A stretch of DNA of 32,294 bases from a bacterium (GCA_030606865.1 JAUWFQ010000009.1:1-32294); one strand, 5' to 3'. Counted from the stretch's first letter, positions 1,994-18,138 are shown. Program-made: numbers and translations. Notes: generated by a model from the letters alone, not told the origin.

Positions 1994-3255
1994 ACTAAAA
2001 TCCTTTCTGGCTCTTTTTTGGTCAGACTAGGATCTTTAACGTAAAATATCATAATTGCTAAACCGACGCAAAGCATTCCGGCGATTATCCAAAATAATTG
2101 CGCAGTGCCGAATGTTTCAGAAATATATGCGGCAGCGAATATTGTAATTAGAATAAATGGTGCTAAAAATGTATCAATTAAAGCTATATATAATTTACTA
2201 TCGTTTCTGCCAGCAAAGCTGTAAACCATATTCATTGATGCCGGCATAAAAGCGCCCAGACCAAAACCAAGGAATATAAATACGGTGTAAACGCCGAACA
2301 TAGTCGTTGTGAATAATGCTGTAAGTACGGCAAAAAGGTGCATAGTAAAAGAAAACACGATTGCCATTTTGTGTCCAAAGCGATCACCAATCTTACCGGA
2401 CAAATAGCTTGATAATCCATAGGCAACTACATTTAATATCGTAAAAATACCGGCAGTGCTAATATCAAAGCTGAATTTTTCCTGCATGAAAACGGCATAT
2501 AAGCTGATAGCAGGGAAAATTACAGTCAGGAAAGCTCGTGCAATCAAATAGCGCCGAAAGCTAATATGTGTTTTGATAATTGTTTTTGTTTCAGACAAAA
2601 ATTCGGCAACCGATTTATGCGGACGTTTTTCCTCCGGTGATTTAATACGCAAACCGAGGTACAGAATGGTTGCGATCATTATCATTAATAAATATATAAA
2701 AAATCCGTAGCCGAAGTTTTGTGGAAACGGAATGGAACTGCTAAATAGTATTTTTACTAAAACCCCACCTAAAAATCCGCCAATACTATTGAAAGCAAAT
2801 GATACTCCCAAAAATGCACCACGCGAATCATCATTAACGGCATGCCGTAAAAAATCTGCCCAAATTGGAATGAGAAATCCGATTGATATGCCATACAGGA
2901 TGAAACATATATAATAGTAAATCCAAGCAGTTGGTCCGGTAGGGACAAAAAAGGCAAAGACGAAACCCATCATAAAAACCGGAGGCCAAATCAACAGATG
3001 AACACCAATAGCAACACTTTTAATATTACGTATATTGCGTCCCATTAGTGCAGAAAAAAGCTGTGGTAAAGCCATCAAAATGGCAAAAAGTCCTGCTACT
3101 GAAACCACGACTCCTGCCGGTGCACCCAATTGCTTTAAAAACAGCGGCACAATGGCGTAGGTCGTGTGAAATGCCATCCCAAAACCCCAGCAAAATTCGT
3201 GAGCGCTGTTCAAGGTTAAGTTATGTTTTAAATCATGTTTTGACAGTCTTTCCAT
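1990..3255 (-). CDS. MFS transporter
   Basis: 421 aa, about 12 hydrophobic segments, MFS-like loop SGKIGDRFGHKMAI. Confidence 0.85.
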   Translation of the reverse strand: MERLSKHDLKHNLTLNSAHEFCWGFGMAFHTTYAIVPLFLKQLGAPAGVVVSVAGLFAILMALPQLFSALMGRNIRNIKSVAIGVHLLIWPPVFMMGFVFAFFVPTGPTAWIYYYICFILYGISIGFLIPIWADFLRHAVNDDSRGAFLGVSFAFNSIGGFLGGVLVKILFSSSIPFPQNFGYGFFIYLLMIMIATILYLGLRIKSPEEKRPHKSVAEFLSETKTIIKTHISFRRYLIARAFLTVIFPAISLYAVFMQEKFSFDISTAGIFTILNVVAYGLSSYLSGKIGDRFGHKMAIVFSFTMHLFAVLTALFTTTMFGVYTVFIFLGFGLGAFMPASMNMVYSFAGRNDSKLYIALIDTFLAPFILITIFAAAYISETFGTAQLFWIIAGMLCVGLAIMIFYVKDPSLTKKEPERILV

Positions 3256-4150
3256 TTTGCTTTTTTTGTTCTCGAGTAAGTAGAATTATGGAGATTATCA
3301 GCACGCCGCCACCAATGTATTGCACCGGTGATAATATCCGCCCGCGCACGATCCAATCTATCGCAACAGCGGAAAGCGGCCAAAAAAGTTCATAGATTGT
3401 CGAATGCGATGCCTTAACATGTTTTAAACCGTAATAATAAATGAATAAAGCAACTGAGCCGGTAGTAAATACAATTAATAGTATAATTTTCCATTGCAAA
3501 GCGGTTATCACACTAATTTCAGAATAACCACGAACGGCTATTAAAACAACCATCGCAATAATCGCCGTAACCGATAATCGCAAAGCAGTCACCACAGGAA
3601 AGGAAAGAGTTTTTAAGGCATGTTTCCCCAAAACAGTTGAGCTACCCCAACAAAATGCCGCCAAAAAAGCCAATAATGCGGCAATTGTTGCTTTATCATT
3701 TCCTGCGGGAATAGGATTTAGTCCAAAAGTGACAAAATATCCACCTACAAGGGCTATTGTTGCTAATAGTAAAAATCTTTTTGTGATACGCTCTTTTAAA
3801 ACAACTGCCGCAAGCGATATCGCAAACAGTGGTTGAAATTTTTGCAATAACACCACAACCGATAAGTCGATATAATTGATGTAACTAAGCGCTTTTGTAT
3901 AAAAGAACAATCCTAGTAAACCGCCAAAGACACTTATCCAAAAAATTGACGACCAAGCCCTTTGCCCCATCGTAAATATTTCTTTTTTACCTTTCAGCAA
4001 GAAGGGCAAGAAAACGAGTGCACCTATTACATGTTCTATAGCAACAATTAAAAAAGATGAAACATTATAGAGTTCTTGCCGCAGGAAACCGTCCAAACTC
4101 CATAATAAAGCTGCAAATATGATAGCAAAGATTGGTAAGTACTTTTTCAC
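3233..4150 (-). CDS. EamA/DMT-family transporter
   Basis: 305 aa with about 10 TM segments in two halves; FAALLWSLDGFLRQ and LAAFCWGSSTVLGKHAL are typical EamA repeats. Overlaps the annotated MFS start by 23 nt. Confidence 0.85.
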   Translation of the reverse strand: MKKYLPIFAIIFAALLWSLDGFLRQELYNVSSFLIVAIEHVIGALVFLPFLLKGKKEIFTMGQRAWSSIFWISVFGGLLGLFFYTKALSYINYIDLSVVVLLQKFQPLFAISLAAVVLKERITKRFLLLATIALVGGYFVTFGLNPIPAGNDKATIAALLAFLAAFCWGSSTVLGKHALKTLSFPVVTALRLSVTAIIAMVVLIAVRGYSEISVITALQWKIILLIVFTTGSVALFIYYYGLKHVKASHSTIYELFWPLSAVAIDWIVRGRILSPVQYIGGGVLIISIILLTREQKKQNGKTVKT

Positions 4151-5268: not shown

Positions 5269-8094
5269 ATGAAAACCATTTCTGATAAAATCATCATTCG
5301 CGGTGCACGACAGCATAACCTAAAAAACATTGATTTAGATATTCCGCGCAATAAATTAGTTGTAATTACCGGCTTGTCTGGCTCAGGCAAATCATCATTA
5401 GCCTTTGATACAATTTATGCGGAAGGACAAAGGCGCTACGTGGAATCCCTTTCTTCCTATGCTCGCCAGTTTTTAGGTTTAATGGAAAAGCCGGACATGG
5501 ATTATATCGAGGGTTTATCACCCGCGATTTCAATAGAACAGAAGGCAGCCGCCCGCAATCCGCGCTCCACAGTTGGAACAGTTACGGAAATTCATGATTA
5601 TCTTCGCTTGCTTTATGCACACATTGGTAAGCCACATTGTTGGATTTGCGGACGACCGATTCAGCGCCAAACTGTACAGCAAATTGTAGATACAGTTAAA
5701 AAGTTTAAAAATGATACACGGATTTATATTTTGGCACCAGTTGTCCGTGGCAGAAAAGGAGAACACAAAGGAGTCTTTGAGGAAATTAAAAAAGAAGGTT
5801 TTCTACGTGTTCGCGTTAATGGTAAGTTGAAAAACCTTGACGAAAAAATATCTTTAACAAAGAATAAGAAACACACAATTGAAGTCGTAGTGGATCGCTT
5901 AGTTCTCGAAGGTGATTATCATGAGCGGCTTACTGAATCAATTGAATTGGCGTTGAAGATTGGCTTGGGATTGATTTTAGTACATGAATTACCCGATAAT
6001 GATCATCTATTTAGCGAACATTTTGCCTGTCCCCATTGTGAAGTATCGATGGAAGAATTAACCCCAAGAATGTTCTCGTTTAATTCTCCATATGGAGCAT
6101 GCCCAACCTGTGATGGTCTTGGTTCAAAAATGGAAATTGATCCGGAATTAGTGGTGCCGGATAAAAATAAATCGTTAATTCAAGGAGCAATAGCACCACT
6201 TGGGGAACAACCACGTGGAAATTGGTATGGAAGTATCTTAAAAAGCTTGGCGAAACACTATAAATTAAGTTTCACAACACCGTGGTATAAAATTGATCCT
6301 ATCGTGCGTGAAATTTTGCTTTACGGCACCGGCAGTAATCAATTTGAAATGACTTACACTTCTGAAAGATGGACTGGTACATATCGCGGCGGATGGGAAG
6401 GAACACTCAACAACCTTATGCGGCGCTATAAGCAAACACAATCATCTCACATCCGTGCTTGGATTGAACAATATATGCGTATGCAGCCCTGTCCTGAATG
6501 TAACGGAGCGCGATTAAAAAAAGAAAGCGTCGCAGTTACAGTTGGTGGAAAAAATCTGGGCGAAATATCGCATATGAGTATTCATTCAATTTTAACATAT
6601 ATTCAGGATTTAGATTTAAATAAAACTGAAAAAAAAATTGCTGAACAAATATTATTAGAAATCTCCGAAAGACTCGGATTTCTTGTTAATGTTGGTTTGG
6701 ATTATCTTACCCTTGAAAGATCAGCAACAACGCTCTCTGGCGGTGAAAGTCAACGTATACGTCTTGCAACGCAAATTGGATCACAATTGGTAGGTGTACT
6801 ATATGTGTTGGACGAGCCTTCCATAGGATTGCATCCGCGTGACAACATAAGGTTACTAAGTACATTAAAAGCATTAAGAGATTTAGGTAATTCAATTTTA
6901 ATTGTTGAACACGATCAAGAAACAATGGAGGCTTCTGATCATATTATTGATATTGGACCGGGAGCCGGCGAACATGGCGGTGAAATTATATTTTCAGGGA
7001 ATCCTCAAGATTTGTTAAAATGTAAGGAGTCAATCACAGCACAATTTTTAACTGGTAAGAAAGAAATATCTTTACCGAAAACACGCAGACAGGGAATCAA
7101 TAAAAGTTTGAGGATTATAGGTGCTGGAGGTAATAATCTGAAAAATATTGATGTTGATTTTCCGCTTGGCAAATTTATTGTTGTAACCGGGGTGTCGGGA
7201 AGTGGAAAGAGCACACTTGTTAATGAAACTTTATATCAGATTTTAGCGCGCGATTTACATAAAGCAAGGAAATATCCATTGCGGTATAAATCAATTGAGG
7301 GTTTGGAATTATTAGATAAAGTGGTTGATATAGATCAAAAACCAATCGGACGTACACCGCGCTCAAATCCGGCAACATATACAGGTGTTTTTACTTTTAT
7401 CCGTGATTTGTTTTCGCAGCTCCCCGAATCTAAATTAAGAGGATATAAAGTGGGAAGATTTTCCTTTAACGTGAAAGGTGGTCGCTGTGAAGCGTGTCAA
7501 GGTGACGGAATAATCAAAATTGAAATGAATTTTCTACCGGATGTTTACGTTACTTGCGAAGTTTGTAAAGGGAAACGGTATAATCGCGAAACGCTTGAAG
7601 TAAAATATAAAGGGAAAAATGTAGCTGAAGTGCTTGCGATGTCGGTTGAGGATGCGTTGCAATTCTTTAGGAACATCCCTTCCGTATTTAGAAAATTGAC
7701 TACTTTGAATGAGGTCGGATTGGGCTATATTCGTCTTGGGCAGCAAGCGACTACATTATCAGGCGGCGAAGCGCAAAGAGTTAAGTTAGCAACAGAATTA
7801 TCAAAAGTTGGTAGTGATAGAACGATTTATATTTTAGATGAACCTACAACAGGATTACATTTTGCCGATGTAAAAATGTTATTAGCAGTGCTTCAGACCC
7901 TGGTTGATCGGGGCAATACGGTGATTGTGATTGAGCATAATTTAGATGTGATCAAGTGTGCCGATTGGGTCATTGATCTTGGTCCTGAGGGCGGTGATGC
8001 CGGCGGTGAAGTAATATTTACAGGAGTTCCTGAAGATTTGGTAGAGCATTCTAAGTCGTACACGGGGAAATTTTTAAAGGGGAAAATAGGATAA
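5269..8094 (+). CDS. uvrA: excinuclease ABC subunit A
   Basis: 941 aa; [36 protein letters not shown], duplicated ABC ATPase with LSGGE signatures, zinc-binding CxxC pairs. Confidence 0.99.
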
Positions 8095-8100
8095 ACTCAA

Positions 8101-10140
8101 TTGAGCAAAACAATTTCAAATCGGTTTATTTGGTTATGGGAAAAAGGATTACTTTATATTATGTTAACAGGTATTGTGTATGCTGTTTATTCTCTTAGTA
8201 CGAATGTAGGGGTTTTGGATTGGCGAAAAGAAGTAACATACTTTAATTACATCAAAATTTCATTAGTAGATTATAACATGTTTCCATATTTCTGGTGGGA
8301 GAAGTTGACTAACATTGACTGGTATCCACCGATAAGGGCAACAGCAGCATTTATTGCAATACCGGAAACACCCGTATTTTCTCCAATTATACCATTAATA
8401 ATGATTATGAGCGTTATCGGATTTATTAAACTATACATGTTTTTAATGTTTATTGTAGGCGTAGTAGGTGTTGTAAAATTGAAAAAACAATTAAATTGGA
8501 ATGATATTCAATTCCGAACCTACTGTGCAATGTATCTGTTTTCACCCATAATTATGCAGCATCTAGCAGTTGGCTATTCACCATGGATAAATCTATTTTT
8601 ATTTCCGTGGTTTGTTTTCTTTTTAGCTGAGAAAAATAAATTAAGAAGCTCCATAGGTATTGCCGGAACAATGGCATTTGTATTGCTTCAAGGCGGCGTT
8701 TATACATTTATTTGGTTTATGATGATTTTCATACTTTATAGTTTTTGGTGTTTAATTATTGATAGAAAGTGGCAGATCATCCTACAAATGGCAATTGTAC
8801 CGTTGTTGGTTCTGTTATTAGCATTAGTCAGGATTTATTCTACAGCCAATGCTTATGTTGATTTTACACGTGTATGGTTTGAAACAAACGGGTATAATCC
8901 CTTTAATTTTTTATTCTATGCTCTAATTCCGACAGTTACTATTCAGCCAATAGATTTACTGTTTTGGACTGACTTGTTTAGGATAGGAATACCACAGCAT
9001 GATGGCGGGATCTTCTGGGGATTAATTGTAATAATGGTTTTAGTTATGGTTTTCCGATTTAAAGAAATATTTAAGAAAGGCACCAAAAGTCAAAACACAA
9101 TTAATTATCTGGCGATGTTTTTTACTGCCGCAACAATATTTATCTTTTCATTTTTCTCAGTTTGGGCTGCCATTATGAAAACGATACAGTCCTTAATTTA
9201 TATACCGTTTTTTGAAAGCATTAAAAATTATGGTTTTCGATGGGCGATTCCTGCCTATTTGGGTTTTACTTTAGTGTTGGCAAATAATACAGAAAAGATA
9301 TGGCTTGTTCTAAGCGATTGGCTAAAAACAAAGATATGGATAAATATAAAAACGGTAGCAATAATTCTCTTTAAAGTTGCAGTCTTAGGACTGGGAGTTG
9401 TTTGGCTTGTACTATTATTTTTAAAAAACCAAATATTAGACCAGTTTAAGAATGTAATTAGTATAGCTTTTAATGGGGAGGCATTTGCATTTATTAGAAA
9501 TCGTATGGAAGGAATGGATCAAAATAATCTTGAATTTTATTTTTTAAAAGCGGAAAATTTATATTCTGTTATTCAACAGTGGATTCTAATTATATTAATT
9601 TTTTTATTTATGATTGTTGTCTTCGCATTAATTTTTAAAATCAATAGAAATAAAACCGCAATAATTATAGAAAAGTATCCTTTCCTTAAATTCGAAATGT
9701 TATTGGCGATTCCACTGCTGTTTTCAATGTCAATGTGGACAAAATTAGCGATATCAGTACCATATACAGATTTTCCAGTACAGACAGTAGAAAGCCCAAC
9801 TGTTATTGTAGAAAGAGATAGTTTATATAGCTCTCCTAAAATATCGGTAACACCGAAAGAAATGATAATTAAACCGGATGCAGAGATAAAACCATACGGA
9901 TACAAATTCCCAAAGATTTTAGCTCGTGATTCTAAATATTTATTGGTAAAAACAAAAAATGCAGTGTTATTTAACATGCAGAACGAATTAATGATAAAGC
10001 CATTGGACAATGAAGAAATAATCGTAACATTTAAAACAAAGACTATTAACAGGACATTGCTGATAACACTAATTTCATGGCTAGGTAGTATTGTTTTCTT
10101 TATCGTGAGTAATTTTCGATCAAAAAAATTACGGGGATAG
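8101..10140 (+). CDS. multi-TM membrane protein, putative GT-C / YfhO-like glycosyltransferase
   Basis: 679 aa, TTG start 6 nt after the uvrA stop; many TM segments. First large loop GVLDWRKEVTYFNYIKISLVDYNMFPYFWWEKL...ETPVFSPIIP resembles the GT-C/YfhO-like pattern (DW....Y....R.SL..yg.fP.W...LSP). Confidence 0.6.
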   Translation: MSKTISNRFIWLWEKGLLYIMLTGIVYAVYSLSTNVGVLDWRKEVTYFNYIKISLVDYNMFPYFWWEKLTNIDWYPPIRATAAFIAIPETPVFSPIIPLIMIMSVIGFIKLYMFLMFIVGVVGVVKLKKQLNWNDIQFRTYCAMYLFSPIIMQHLAVGYSPWINLFLFPWFVFFLAEKNKLRSSIGIAGTMAFVLLQGGVYTFIWFMMIFILYSFWCLIIDRKWQIILQMAIVPLLVLLLALVRIYSTANAYVDFTRVWFETNGYNPFNFLFYALIPTVTIQPIDLLFWTDLFRIGIPQHDGGIFWGLIVIMVLVMVFRFKEIFKKGTKSQNTINYLAMFFTAATIFIFSFFSVWAAIMKTIQSLIYIPFFESIKNYGFRWAIPAYLGFTLVLANNTEKIWLVLSDWLKTKIWINIKTVAIILFKVAVLGLGVVWLVLLFLKNQILDQFKNVISIAFNGEAFAFIRNRMEGMDQNNLEFYFLKAENLYSVIQQWILIILIFLFMIVVFALIFKINRNKTAIIIEKYPFLKFEMLLAIPLLFSMSMWTKLAISVPYTDFPVQTVESPTVIVERDSLYSSPKISVTPKEMIIKPDAEIKPYGYKFPKILARDSKYLLVKTKNAVLFNMQNELMIKPLDNEEIIVTFKTKTINRTLLITLISWLGSIVFFIVSNFRSKKLRG

Positions 10141-10187
10141 TTAAATAATAAGATTTATTTTTTGTACTTGTCCTTAAATTTAAATAT

Positions 10188-11669
10188 ATGTCTATTAATA
10201 AATCTAAAGAAATTGCCCTCTTTGTCGATTTAGACGGTACATTGATTGCCACAGATACTTTCTTTGAATCCATTGTTTTGTTGCTAAAATCATATCCGCT
10301 AAAAACATTTTCGTTAATATTATGGATGTTTAAAGGGAAGGCATATCTTAAAGATAAAATTGCTCAACATAAGACACCTAAAGCAAGCCTGTTACCATAT
10401 CGAGAAGAGGTATTAGCTTTTATCAAGAAAGAAAAAGGAAAAGGTCGTAAGGTCTATTTATTAACAGCGGCAAATCAAAAGATTGCCAATAAAGTTGCTA
10501 ATCATCTTGGTTGTTTTGCCGGTGCTTTTGGCTCAAATGATAAGATAAATCTATCAGGAGAACAAAAATTAAAAAGAGTGTATCAAATAGTTGGAAAGGC
10601 ACAATTTGACTACATTGGAGACTCTAAAGTCGACATACCGATTTGGAAAAAATCCAATGAAATAATAATGGTAAATCCGAATACTGTTGTAATAAATAAA
10701 TTTAAAAAATGTAAAAATGTACAATTGATTAAACCAAGCAAATATAAAACAAATCTTAAAATAATGATAAAGGGTATGCGGGTTCATCAATGGGCGAAAA
10801 ACTCATTACTCTTTTTACCGATTATAATGGCACATCAGTTTACAGATGTAAATTTGTTAATTACAGTTTTATGGGCATTCATTTCATTCAGTTTATGTGC
10901 TTCAGCAGTTTATATATTAAACGATTTAATAGACATAGAAACTGACAGGGAACATCCAACCAAGAAAAAGAGACCATTAGCTTCAGGCTTAATGTCCGTT
11001 AAAATGGCTGCAATGTTAATATTTTTACTTTTACTAACAAGTGTTTTTATATCAATAAAGATGCTTTCCGCGGCATTTTTAATAATTTTAATAATTTATA
11101 TGATTTCAACAACTGCATACTCAATTATTCTTAAACAAATAATGTTGATTGACGTGATAATCTTGGGTGGATTATATACTTTGCGGATTGTAGCAGGATC
11201 AGTTGCCTCAAGAGTGGATGTCTCTTCGTGGTTATTGGTCTTTTCAATGTTTTTCTTTTTAAGTCTTGCCTTTATGAAAAGATATGCTGATTTAATTCTA
11301 ATGAAACAGAATAACTATGAAGAAATTGCAGGAAGAGGTTACCATATTGACGATTTAGATCTTGTGCAAAAGTCTGGTATTACTAGTGGATTCATAGCGA
11401 TGTTAGTCTTGGCGTTGTATATTAACAGTGATCATGTAATTGAGTTGTATAAATCCCCCATACTTATTTGGTTTATGATACCAGTACTATTTTATTGGCT
11501 AATGAGAATGTGGATGGTTACTAATCGAGGGGAAATGACAAATGATCCAATTAATTACGCAATACGCGATAGGACAACATATGTTGCGATGACAATCATA
11601 GGTATAATAATGTTATTGGCTGCAACTATAGACAACTCCATTTTAAATAATCTTAATATAATTCAATGA
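10188..11669 (+). CDS. HAD phosphatase-UbiA prenyltransferase fusion, putative polyprenyl-phosphate phosphoribosyltransferase (DPPR synthase-like)
   Basis: N-terminus: HAD motifs FVDLDGTLIATD, LLTAANQ, GDSKVDIPIW. C-terminus: UbiA with MRVHQWAKNSLLFLPI, NDLIDIETDREHPTKKKRPLASG and GGLYTLRIVAGSVA, typical of the Rv3806c-like subfamily. Confidence 0.88.
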   Translation: MSINKSKEIALFVDLDGTLIATDTFFESIVLLLKSYPLKTFSLILWMFKGKAYLKDKIAQHKTPKASLLPYREEVLAFIKKEKGKGRKVYLLTAANQKIANKVANHLGCFAGAFGSNDKINLSGEQKLKRVYQIVGKAQFDYIGDSKVDIPIWKKSNEIIMVNPNTVVINKFKKCKNVQLIKPSKYKTNLKIMIKGMRVHQWAKNSLLFLPIIMAHQFTDVNLLITVLWAFISFSLCASAVYILNDLIDIETDREHPTKKKRPLASGLMSVKMAAMLIFLLLLTSVFISIKMLSAAFLIILIIYMISTTAYSIILKQIMLIDVIILGGLYTLRIVAGSVASRVDVSSWLLVFSMFFFLSLAFMKRYADLILMKQNNYEEIAGRGYHIDDLDLVQKSGITSGFIAMLVLALYINSDHVIELYKSPILIWFMIPVLFYWLMRMWMVTNRGEMTNDPINYAIRDRTTYVAMTIIGIIMLLAATIDNSILNNLNIIQ

Positions 11670-12991
11670 AACAACACTATAAATCGTGGGGGCTTTATCC
11701 TCCGGCAAAGCACAAAAATGTAATAAAACTACACTGGATTAGTGATATACCTGATTTAAGCAGAATAGAAACTTTGGTATTGCCATATGGTTTGGGACGA
11801 AGCTATGGTGATAATTGTTTGAATAATGATAACACCCTATTGGATACATCAGGGATTTCAAGATTCATCGAATTTGACAAGAAATCTGGTATAATAAAAT
11901 GTGAAGCAGGTGTATCATTTGCAAAGATATTAAAGGTAATTGTGCCAAATGGATGGTTTTTTCCGGTTACTCCCGGCACAAAATTTGTTACAGTCGGTGG
12001 TGCAATAGCAAACGACGTTCATGGTAAAAACCACCATACGGCAGGCACTTTTGGTAAACATATAATAAGCTTTGAATTGTTGAAGTCCAGCGGGAAAAAA
12101 TATATATGTTCGGCAACAAAGAATACGGAATTATATAAAGCAACAATCGGTGGGATGGGCTTGACGGGATTGATCCTGTGGGCGCAATTTAAATTGAAAC
12201 CTATTAACAATGCTTACATTGATGCTGAAACAATTAAATTTAAAAATTTGGATGAATTCTTTGAGCTTTCTGAGAAATCTTCTAAAGAATATGAATATAT
12301 TGTATCTTGGATAGATTGTACAAGTAGGGGTAAGAATTTTGGAAGGGGATTGTTTTTTCGTGGTAATCATTCTAGTCTCGACAAATCAGAATTACCACAA
12401 CCTAAACCACCGAAAAGGTTACCATTTCCATTTACTGCCCCTGCTTTTTTGCTGAATCGATTTACTTTGAAAATCGCAAATGCTGTAATATATCGTTCAC
12501 AACTTAAGAAACATACCAAAGGGATAAAACACTATGATCCGTTCTTCTATCCTTTAGATTCAATATTGAATTGGAATCGGATGTACGGTAAAAGAGGATT
12601 CTTCCAATATCAATGCGTTGTTCCATATACCGATGGTGGTACTGCTATCAGACAAATTTTGGAGTGTATATCAAAATCGGGAAAAGGTTCATTCTTAGCT
12701 GTGTTAAAAACAATGGGTAGCGTTAGTTCTCCAGGAATCTTATCTTTTCCGAGAGAGGGAGTTACTTTAGCTTTAGATTTTGCCAATCACGGAGAAAAAA
12801 CCCGTAAGCTATTTGCAGACTTAGATGAAATTGTAAAATCAGTGGGTGGTGCCTTATATCCCTGTAAAGATGCGTGCATGTCCCCGGAAATGTTTCGTTT
12901 TAGTTACGCTGAATGGAAAAATTTTAATAAATATATAGATCCAAAATTTTCCTCCAGCTTATGGCGTAGGGTAAATAAAGAAAAGGAGTAG
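11666..12991 (+). CDS. dprE1: FAD-dependent polyprenylphosphoryl-ribose 2'-oxidase (DprE1-like)
   Basis: LPYGLGRSYGDNCLN, PVTPGTKFVTVGGAIANDVHGKNHHTAGTFG, GFFQYQCVVP and CKDAC align with DprE1 motifs; ATGA overlap with the UbiA gene. Confidence 0.9.
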   Translation: MKQHYKSWGLYPPAKHKNVIKLHWISDIPDLSRIETLVLPYGLGRSYGDNCLNNDNTLLDTSGISRFIEFDKKSGIIKCEAGVSFAKILKVIVPNGWFFPVTPGTKFVTVGGAIANDVHGKNHHTAGTFGKHIISFELLKSSGKKYICSATKNTELYKATIGGMGLTGLILWAQFKLKPINNAYIDAETIKFKNLDEFFELSEKSSKEYEYIVSWIDCTSRGKNFGRGLFFRGNHSSLDKSELPQPKPPKRLPFPFTAPAFLLNRFTLKIANAVIYRSQLKKHTKGIKHYDPFFYPLDSILNWNRMYGKRGFFQYQCVVPYTDGGTAIRQILECISKSGKGSFLAVLKTMGSVSSPGILSFPREGVTLALDFANHGEKTRKLFADLDEIVKSVGGALYPCKDACMSPEMFRFSYAEWKNFNKYIDPKFSSSLWRRVNKEKE

Positions 12992-12994
12992 ATA

Positions 12995-13735
12995 ATGAAA
13001 AATATTTTAGTAATAGGGGCAACTTCAGCAATTGCTCAAACATTTATAGAACGCATGGCTGTTGGTGATAATAAACTGTTTTTAGTCGCTCGTGATAAAG
13101 ATAAGCTAAGCACAATAAAAAATGATCTCAGAATAAAGAAAAATATAAATATTACCACTTTTATTTTAGATGTGAACGATCATAATAACTATGACAGCAT
13201 GTTTAATACAGCCAAATCATATTTGGGTAGAATTGATATATTATTAATGGCTCATGGCACTTTACCTGACCAAAAAGAGTGTGAAGAAAAAGTTGAAACA
13301 GCTGTTTTTGAATTTGGAATAAATGCTTTAAGTATTATTGTTTTATGTTTAAAAGCAGCTAAAATATTTGAAGATCAAAAATTTGGACTATTAGCAGTGA
13401 TAACATCAGTTGCCGGTGACCGCGGACGTCAAAGTAATTATATTTATGGCTCAGCGAAAGGTGCAGTTAACATATTTTTACAGGGACTACGTAACCGACT
13501 TACAAAATACGGTGTTAGCGTATTGACAGTGAAGCCCGGTTTTGTTGATACCCCAATGACAGCACATCTTCCGAAAAATCTGCTTTTCTCAAAACCAGAA
13601 GTAATTGCTAAGGGTATTGTAAAAGCAATAAACAAGAACAAATCAAAAGAAATATATTTACCAGGATATTGGAGGATAATAATGTTTATAATTAAATCTA
13701 TTCCGGGAAAAATCTTTAATAAATTATCTTTATAA
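12995..13735 (+). CDS. dprE2: SDR reductase, DprE2-like (keto-arabinose reductase)
   Basis: GATSAIAQTF Rossmann motif, ITSVAGDRGRQSNYIYGSAKGAV (YxxxK), KPGFVDTPMTAHL, C-terminal IPGKIFNKLSL resembling DprE2 ends; Shine-Dalgarno AAAGGAG upstream; 3 nt after dprE1. Confidence 0.85.
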   Translation: MKNILVIGATSAIAQTFIERMAVGDNKLFLVARDKDKLSTIKNDLRIKKNINITTFILDVNDHNNYDSMFNTAKSYLGRIDILLMAHGTLPDQKECEEKVETAVFEFGINALSIIVLCLKAAKIFEDQKFGLLAVITSVAGDRGRQSNYIYGSAKGAVNIFLQGLRNRLTKYGVSVLTVKPGFVDTPMTAHLPKNLLFSKPEVIAKGIVKAINKNKSKEIYLPGYWRIIMFIIKSIPGKIFNKLSL

Positions 13736-13750
13736 TATCAATTTCATATC

Positions 13751-13814
13751 CTACTTGGTGTTAAACCTGAGTTTTTTTTAAACTCAAAATTTGGAAAACC
13801 TTGAAACCAGGTAG
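13751..13814. terminator. nested stem-loops between dprE2 and ruvB, probable terminator/structured 3' end
   Basis: TGAGTTT(13768-13774)/AAACTCA(13780-13786) hairpin inside CTACTTGGT(13751-13759)/ACCAGGTAG(13806-13814), one mismatch or wobble, followed by TATTTT. Confidence 0.5.
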
Positions 13815-13856
13815 TATTTTCACGCCCTCAATATATACGTTTTTTATTTATTTCGC

Positions 13857-14885
13857 ATGATTAACGAATTACATATGACAGACCCTGTACTGAATGATGA
13901 TGATTTAACAGTAGAAAAAACACTACGACCGTCACATTTTGATGATTTTATTGGCCAAAGAGAATTGGTTGAAAGCTTAATGGTTTATATCGAAGCTGCC
14001 AACAAGAGAGAAGGCGCACTTGATCATGTGTTACTATTTGGGCCACCCGGGCTTGGGAAAACTACTTTAGCCAATATTGTTGCCAAAGAATTAAGTGCAA
14101 ATATTCGTCCCTCATCCGGTCCTGTTTTGGATCGCGCTGGCGATTTGGCTGGGATGTTAACAAACTTAGAACATCGCGATGTGTTTTTTATCGATGAAAT
14201 ACATCGGTTGAATAGTGTTGTCGAAGAATATTTGTATTCAGCTATGGAAGATTTCCGCATCGATATTATGATAGATAAAGGTCCGGGTGCTCGTAGTGTA
14301 CAATTAAATTTGGAACAATTCACTCTTGTTGGAGCAACTACAAGATTAGGGAATTTAACTTCACCATTACGTGATCGCTTTGGCGTTGTATTAAGAGTTG
14401 ATTACTATAGCGATGAGGATTTGTTTCACATCGTGCAACGCTCAGCTGGAATTTTAGAGATTGAGATTGATGATGATGGTACATGGGAAATAGCCCGCCG
14501 CTCAAGAGGAACACCGCGAATTGCGAACCGGATTTTACGCCGCACGAGAGATTATGCGGAGGTCAAAGCCAATGGCAACATAAATGAAAAGATAGCTAAA
14601 AAATCACTTACAACACTTGGAATTGATGAAACGGGATTGGATGAAATGGACCGGCGAATATTGGCCACGTTAATAGACAAATTTGATGGAGGACCAGTAG
14701 GAATAAGTTCATTAGCGGTCGCAATCGGCGAAGATTCTACAACTATCGAAGATGTATATGAACCATTTTTAATAAAAGAAGGATTTATTCAACGTACTTC
14801 CAGAGGGCGAATAGCACAGGAGAGAGCGTTTAAACTATTGGGGAAAAATCAAAAACAATTACAACGAGGGTTTTTTAATGATTGA
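13857..14885 (+). CDS. ruvB: Holliday junction branch migration helicase RuvB
   Basis: [67 protein letters not shown]. Confidence 0.99.
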
Positions 14886-16689: not shown

Positions 16690-18138
16690 TTGAAAATATT
16701 TTCTAATCATCCATTTTTTAAATCAAAGGGAATCCTATTTTTAATTCCTGTAGTACTAGCTTTTAGTATATATTATATAACGCTGCTCCATGAGATTTTA
16801 TCAGGAGATTCAGCGGAATTTGCTTTACAAGCGTACAATGTGGGTGTTACCCATTCGCCTGGATATCCCGTTTATATTCTTCTTGGTAAACTTTTCATTT
16901 TACTTTTTTCTGATCCCGGATTTTCAACAAATTTATTGAGTGCAGTTTGTACAAGTTTATCTATTGGAATAATGAGTTTATTGATATTTGATTTTACTAA
17001 GAACCGAACTGTAAGTATTATAATACCGTTATTTTTTGCGTTTTCACCAATCATATGGCCGTTGGCAATATCAACAGAAGTCTATAATGTAAATATGTTA
17101 TTTCTTTCATTATCCATTTATGTACAGTTGCTTTGGTATAGGAAACCATCAAATTTGATGTTATTAATAGCTGCATTTTTGTTTGGTATGTCCTTGGGAA
17201 CATATTTAGCAAATTTATTATTATTACCTGCATTTTTATTCATAATATTTATTAGAAAGGAAAACAGAAAACAGAATATTGCTATTTTCATTTCTGTAAC
17301 AATCATTCTGGGGATTCTAATCCTGGCTTTTTCAATATTGCGGTCCAATGTAGCTCCTCCTTTAGCAAAACTGAATCTGCCCAATACTGTTATAGGTTCT
17401 ATAAAATATTTTACCGGTTATGAAGATGGGACTATACGAATACATAGTGTAAAGTTTTATTTGTTAAGAATTTTAGAGCATTTGGAAATATTCATCAATA
17501 ATTTTAATGGGATAGGTGTACTATTTGGCCTAATAGGGGTTTATAAACAGTTTCGTATAAATCGCAATATAGCAATATTTTTTATACTAATTGTGATTAT
17601 TGATCTTGGATATTTCACATCTTATGAAGCTAGTGGATATTATTTAATGGTTACTCCTTCGTATTTCATTTTCTATATTTGGACTGCATATGGATTTTCA
17701 CTTTTTTATAATAATTCAAGTAAGCTGAAGCCGGCATTAATAACTGTTTTAATACTAATTAGTGTTATTCAGGTGCTTGATCAAATGCCAGAAAAATTGG
17801 CCCGTGCAAAAAGTCATTATGTGACTAATTTTGCTATAGAAACGTTAAAAAAAATGCCTTCAAATGCAATAATATTTTGTGGATGGGGTAAATACACTAC
17901 TTTTTTATATTTTCAAAGAACACAAAATTTGCGGCGAGATATCACCGTTATGCTGCCTGTAACACAAAATTACTATAGGGATGGTAAGAAATTTGGAAAT
18001 TATTTTACAATTATAAATGCCAATATTAACACACGACCAATATTTGTTGATGTTATTGAACCAAAATTATGGCAACAATATGAAATAAGTGTGTTTGATA
18101 GTAATTGGTATAAAATTAAGGTGAAAAAATCCAATTAG
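16690..18138 (+). CDS. DUF2723 (TMEM260-like) GT-C-type membrane protein
   Basis: LHEILSGDSAEFALQAYNVGVTHSPGYPVYILLGKLF is the signature N-terminal loop of DUF2723; multi-TM, TTG start. Confidence 0.82.
   Translation: MKIFSNHPFFKSKGILFLIPVVLAFSIYYITLLHEILSGDSAEFALQAYNVGVTHSPGYPVYILLGKLFILLFSDPGFSTNLLSAVCTSLSIGIMSLLIFDFTKNRTVSIIIPLFFAFSPIIWPLAISTEVYNVNMLFLSLSIYVQLLWYRKPSNLMLLIAAFLFGMSLGTYLANLLLLPAFLFIIFIRKENRKQNIAIFISVTIILGILILAFSILRSNVAPPLAKLNLPNTVIGSIKYFTGYEDGTIRIHSVKFYLLRILEHLEIFINNFNGIGVLFGLIGVYKQFRINRNIAIFFILIVIIDLGYFTSYEASGYYLMVTPSYFIFYIWTAYGFSLFYNNSSKLKPALITVLILISVIQVLDQMPEKLARAKSHYVTNFAIETLKKMPSNAIIFCGWGKYTTFLYFQRTQNLRRDITVMLPVTQNYYRDGKKFGNYFTIINANINTRPIFVDVIEPKLWQQYEISVFDSNWYKIKVKKSN

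Follow-up and report, generated by a model that had tools for sequence, protein, structure and literature searches.

A gene cassette between uvrA and ruvB predicted to add arabinofuranose outside the membrane, and its variation among species of one bacterial genus

The gap between uvrA and ruvB in a draft bacterial genome (2.03 Mb in 185 contigs, 91.6% complete) holds genes that raise the question of which sugar they may place on the cell surface. The window, meaning the whole stretch of 32,294 nucleotides that was analysed, is contig 185 of this genome, and its uvrA-ruvB gap is filled by four co-oriented genes on the + strand (Table 1). An initial annotation had described four open reading frames downstream of uvrA as a putative operon for polyprenyl-phosphate D-arabinofuranose; ORF analysis bore out their coordinates and confirmed the ATGA overlap at 11666-11669 as well as the gap of 3 nt that precedes 12995. 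A scan for promoters and terminators gave nothing clearly above shuffled sequences, and the hairpin before ruvB has a z of -1.96. Judged from the sequences, the cassette very probably encodes an extracytoplasmic pentofuranose-addition system in its arabinofuranose form, in which the GT-C-like protein would serve as the transferase onto a surface glycan or protein.

Table 1. Features of the uvrA-ruvB region, in window positions
Feature	Position	Strand	Remarks
uvrA	5269-8094		left flank of cassette
GT-C-like polytopic protein (putative transferase)	8101-10140	+	679 aa, TTG start
HAD-UbiA fusion	10188-11669	+	493 aa
DprE1, predicted polyprenyl-P-ribose 2'-oxidase	11666-12991	+	441 aa
DprE2-type SDR, predicted 2-keto reductase	12995-13735	+	246 aa
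Cassette-ruvB junction	13736-13856	+	blastn blocks, alignment
ruvB	13857-14885		right flank of cassette

A decaying or silent insertion without present function is a scarcely credible reading of the cassette. Its contents do vary among sister species and the assembly is a fragmented draft, but none of the four frames is broken, their junctions are tight and their active sites conserved, and two independent sister genomes have collinear flanks.

In the proposed route, the UbiA domain would join PRPP to polyprenyl phosphate to give polyprenyl-P-ribose-5-phosphate, from which the fused HAD half would remove the 5-phosphate to leave polyprenyl-P-ribose. Oxidation at C2 by DprE1 and reduction at C2 by the SDR would yield polyprenyl-P-D-arabinofuranose, which a putative flippase may carry across the membrane; the polytopic protein, taken to be a GT-C enzyme, would then transfer the pentose outside the membrane to a surface glycan or protein. 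The predicted UbiA, HAD and DprE1/SDR steps follow from family membership and conserved residues; the flipping step, the transfer step and the acceptor are all putative.

The HAD-UbiA fusion scores 603 bits against NF006088 (cut-off 351, E 3e-181). Its N-terminal HAD phosphatase spans residues ~1-184, with DLDGT at 14, and is the predicted 5'-phosphatase of the pathway, a point that the initial annotation had missed. The polyprenyl-phosphate phosphoribosyltransferase half (residues ~185-493) matches the solved mycobacterial decaprenyl-phosphate phosphoribosyltransferase (DPPR synthase) 8j8j with E 1e-30. No aligned homologue departs from the Asp-rich motif N245, D246, D249, D253 or from R365, and the corresponding residues have been tested in the Citrobacter enzyme (PMC11127046). 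In a tree of 54 UbiA domains, the proteins of the window and of two sister genomes form one clade (99/95), nearest to that of a Kapabacteria cassette (94/97), inside a phosphoribosyltransferase group to which a Tsukamurella enzyme also belongs; other UbiA proteins from this phylum fall outside the group. The UbiA assignment thus survives the phylogeny test, and family model, structure match, motif and tree together place in the cassette both the UbiA-type phosphoribosyltransferase and the phosphatase of Araf-type three-component systems.

DprE1 matches PDB entries of DprE1 at E 1e-72, the next non-DprE1 match standing at 2e-5. Against the actinobacterial equivalog NF053785 it reaches E 1e-111 and 374 bits, below the curated cut-off of 500, and another cassette DprE1 also falls under that cut-off with 360 bits. 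The equivalents of Mycobacterium tuberculosis (Mtb) Y60, H132, K134, Q334, Q336, Y415 and K418 are kept, and all of these except Y415 are the active-site residues by which the protein belongs to the broad DprE1-type oxidase family. In a tree of 40 FAD oxidases it falls among DprE1 proteins of cassettes and of actinobacteria (fork 83/93), nearest to the Kapabacteria cassette (84/79), so the earlier assignment holds on phylogeny as well. Mtb N385 is replaced by Thr and C387 by Ala; among the non-actinobacterial DprE1 proteins of the set, position 387 is mostly Ala, with few Thr or Ser. Since replacement of Cys387 by Ser or Ala is a reported benzothiazinone-resistant genotype (PMC4608729), DprE1 enzymes that bear Ala at this position should, by inference from the residue, escape covalent trapping by benzothiazinones.

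The SDR scores 282 bits against NF005489 (cut-off 267), a model that the dprE1-adjacent reductases of the KSB1, Acidithiobacillus and Ruegeria cassettes and of genome G126 of the phylum also match. Its second-best model is NF053786 DprE2 (E 1e-47, 163 bits, below the curated cut-off of 250). GATSAIA lies at 8, and the active-site S and Y151/K155 are present. Family models and cassette position support the DprE2-type function given to it earlier.

The shortfall of both oxidoreductases against the actinobacterial equivalog cut-offs, together with the exchanges at 385 and 387 and the aminotransferase that adjoins other DprE1-like genes of the phylum, could mean that they yield an epimer, a 2-keto or a 2-amino derivative of the lipid-linked pentose and not D-arabinofuranose. 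Such a product is decidedly improbable: every other active-site residue tested is kept, the window operon has no aminotransferase, and published Araf-containing glycans accompany DprE1/E2 homologues (PMC11127046).

The transfer of the arabinofuranose is predicted to fall to the GT-C-like protein, the least certain part of the pathway. Its TTG start is supported by the same TTG in the sister genome G003, and the N-terminus (M/L)SKT(I/V)SN is near-identical between the two proteins. Hydropathy indicates many hydrophobic segments, with a soluble stretch at ~555-645 before the last membrane segment. The motif N-V-G-x-L-D40-W-x-K-E44, which follows the first predicted helix, is invariant in the three orthologues, and among the 245 genomes of the phylum only three, all from this genus, encode the protein. 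At the usual thresholds, no match was obtained in Pfam, NCBIfam or PDB. The match to GT-C_AftD is weak (19 bits vs a cut-off of 26), both orthologues are likewise sub-threshold, and the same model also scores below cut-off in two control genomes. In the earlier annotation the label 'GT-C-like' is the weakest point, supported by these sub-threshold signals. AlphaFold2 on the single sequence gave an unusable model (pLDDT 43, pTM 0.23). Two candidate relationships were rejected: a likeness of the three proteins to LptC, with PDB profile search matches at chance level only, and kinship with 70 polytopic proteins encoded close to HAD-UbiA genes elsewhere (profile comparison, highest probability 13%, over 66 residues).

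The lipid-linked sugar may be made as proposed and yet be transferred by a protein encoded elsewhere, in which case the GT-C-like protein would act as a different glycan enzyme, as a flippase or as a polymerase. An example of such a transferase would be the TMEM260-like protein at 16690-18138, a PMT-type GT-C (PF11028, PF13231) encoded 3 kb downstream and in the window only. The absence of a thresholded family match, the lack of found kinship to the polytopic proteins beside other HAD-UbiA genes and the unlinked position of the GT-C-like gene in the sister genome G001 speak for this alternative. It is nonetheless rather unlikely, as the GT-C-like and UbiA genes adjoin in two species and co-vary in three, and the protein combines the weak AftD similarity with an Asp/Glu motif that follows the first helix, an arrangement shared with GT-C enzymes. 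Retained as the putative transferase, the GT-C-like protein is a concrete candidate member of a transferase family that would be new. The TMEM260-like/PMT_2 gene itself lies between ispD and ispF, which are adjacent in G001 and G003, and is thus a second variable insertion nearby.

No flippase gene is present in the cassette, and a GtrA search of the window genome was negative. An EamA transporter gene at 3236-4150 lies near the cassette and is also kept in G001. A member of the O-antigen ligase/polymerase family (PF04932) occurs in all three genomes, which is compatible with a surface polysaccharide as a possible acceptor and not diagnostic of one.

The system is one already described, and what is new here is its comparison within a genus. 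The biochemistry of the 'three-component pentofuranose' pathway has been established for Citrobacter (Kelly et al., 2024; PMC11127046), and its Araf versions carry DprE1/E2 homologues (PMC11127046), both of which are found in the window cassette. In Citrobacter youngae O1/O2, ORF15 is a HAD-UbiA, ORF14 a flippase and ORF12 a GT136, and O2 adds the epimerase ORF13 (PMC11127046). The window shares with these clusters the HAD phosphatase fused N-terminally to the UbiA phosphoribosyltransferase, a polytopic protein within the cluster, and extra epimerase genes that set the pentose and differ between close relatives. It differs in having DprE1/DprE2 in place of a single SDR epimerase, in a cassette without a flippase gene, in a candidate GT-C-like protein where Citrobacter has the GT136 transferase, and in a position between housekeeping genes instead of within an O-antigen cluster.

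Likewise, the mycobacterial decaprenyl-P-arabinose pathway (Rv3806c, Rv3807c, DprE1, DprE2, Emb/Aft) shares the UbiA, DprE1 and DprE2 chemistry, and the weak AftD-like signal of the GT-C-like protein recalls its Emb/Aft transferases. However, the phosphatase is a PAP2 there and a fused HAD here, no Emb genes lie beside the window cassette, and the Cys387 position differs as described above. In Pseudomonas paraeruginosa PA7/Pa5196, the D-Araf modification of pilin involves PSPA7_6245-6251 and TfpW (PMC12369383). As proposed for the window, a UbiA-dependent D-Araf donor is combined there with a GT-C transferase, in a Gram-negative bacterium, whereas the window has the HAD-UbiA fusion and no pilin or tfp gene adjoining the cassette. 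In cassettes of many bacteria, among them KSB1, Kapabacteria, Ruegeria and Acidithiobacillus, HAD-UbiA, dprE1 and dprE2 stand in the identical order; the polytopic proteins encoded nearby show no kinship to the GT-C-like protein at the sensitivity of the comparison, and the Ruegeria locus has a GtrA gene that is absent from the window genome.

The wider spread of the cassette was surveyed at the best-scoring 80 named loci from an alignment scan, a subset of all loci, after a single-protein scan of the named genomes gave no match. The surveyed loci span Pseudomonadota, Myxococcota, Acidobacteriota, Planctomycetota, Chlorobiota and others. At least 3 kb of DNA follow HAD-UbiA at 70 of these 80, and among those 70 best-scoring loci dprE1 and dprE2 lie downstream at 48, dprE1 without a recognised dprE2 at nine, and neither gene at 13. 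The reading given in the initial annotation was largely right, but the non-mycobacterial arabinosylation system that it suggested is not an unusual one, being widespread and already described (PMC11127046). The 13 loci where dprE1 is absent nearby fall within L086-L169, and the gene is also absent nearby at Jannaschia, NGR234 and Vibrio alfacsensis plasmid loci; HAD-UbiA loci without dprE1 probably use ribofuranose or another epimer.

Within the phylum of the window, strong DprE1 matches are rare, and among 245 genomes they comprise the window, G180 (49%), G126 (41%) and G146 (32%). The G126 locus (L079, 8127-11027) lies within a large glycan cluster and has, in this order, genes for a HAD-less UbiA, DprE1 and a DprE2-type SDR; this set groups with a Flammeovirgaceae plasmid cassette. 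Genes for DprE1-like oxidases also have a class III aminotransferase-like gene as a near neighbour in G180 (L078, 9034-13699), G146 (L080) and G130 (L081). In G180 a 589-aa protein is encoded between the two, and the Pfam check of the aminotransferase was made for this genome only. These loci may represent a pathway of oxidation and transamination distinct from arabinose synthesis.

The comparison within the genus shows what varies at the locus itself. The uvrA-ruvB slot is intact in both G001 and G003. The order in G003 is uvrA, GT-C-like, UbiA without HAD, ruvB, and in G001 it is uvrA, HAD-UbiA, ruvB; the GT-C-like gene of G001 adjoins an FkbM methyltransferase gene on a different contig. 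DprE1 was not found in the drafts of G001, G002 and G003 (92%, 70% and 82% complete), and the best-scoring SDRs in these drafts share only 24-28% identity with the window DprE2. By blastn, the match of the flanking DNA to G003, at 83%, runs into the initial portion of the GT-C-like gene and resumes from 13774, so that it brackets the interval given in the initial annotation; DNA common to both sister species starts at ~13774-13782 (blastn, alignment), which marks the right edge of the variable slot. The adjacency of the GT-C-like and UbiA genes in the window and G003 supports the reading of the cassette as a pentofuranose-addition system. Against it stands the UbiA of G003, which is without a HAD domain and without a candidate 5-phosphatase, as no other HAD relative, standalone ones included, was found in that draft, which is 82% complete.

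The flanking and cassette proteins pair the species differently. Among flanking proteins the window and G003 are the closest pair (uvrA 93%, ruvB 94%, prs 90%), whereas among the shared cassette proteins it is G001 and G003 (GT-C-like 55% vs 39-43%, UbiA 65% vs 55-56%). The GT-C-like pattern tracks UbiA and not the flanks, even in G001, where the two genes are unlinked. This discordance, seen in three species, suggests exchange of the cassette. Since the sister cassettes lack dprE1 and dprE2, arabinose would not be reachable by this route there, and with related UbiA and GT-C-like genes the sisters probably supply ribofuranose, the donor being probably polyprenyl-P-ribose. A tentative extension, somewhat more apt to be wrong than right, is that the uvrA-ruvB gap is an exchange site at which the presence or absence of dprE1/dprE2 switches the displayed sugar between arabinofuranose and ribofuranose, each state being accompanied by a matching allele from a GT-C transferase family that is new and confined to the genus.

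Related species may therefore display different sugars. With DprE1 in only one of the four searched genomes of the genus, a recently described pathway, shared with a tuberculosis drug target, is extended to this genus, and similar flanks with and without dprE1/dprE2 offer a natural comparison in which the sugar displayed by the sister species can be predicted. On the G001 contig that carries the GT-C-like gene, a reverse transcriptase gene (Pfam) is found a few kb upstream of it, with apparent cas1 and cas2 genes following (L082, 477-2880).
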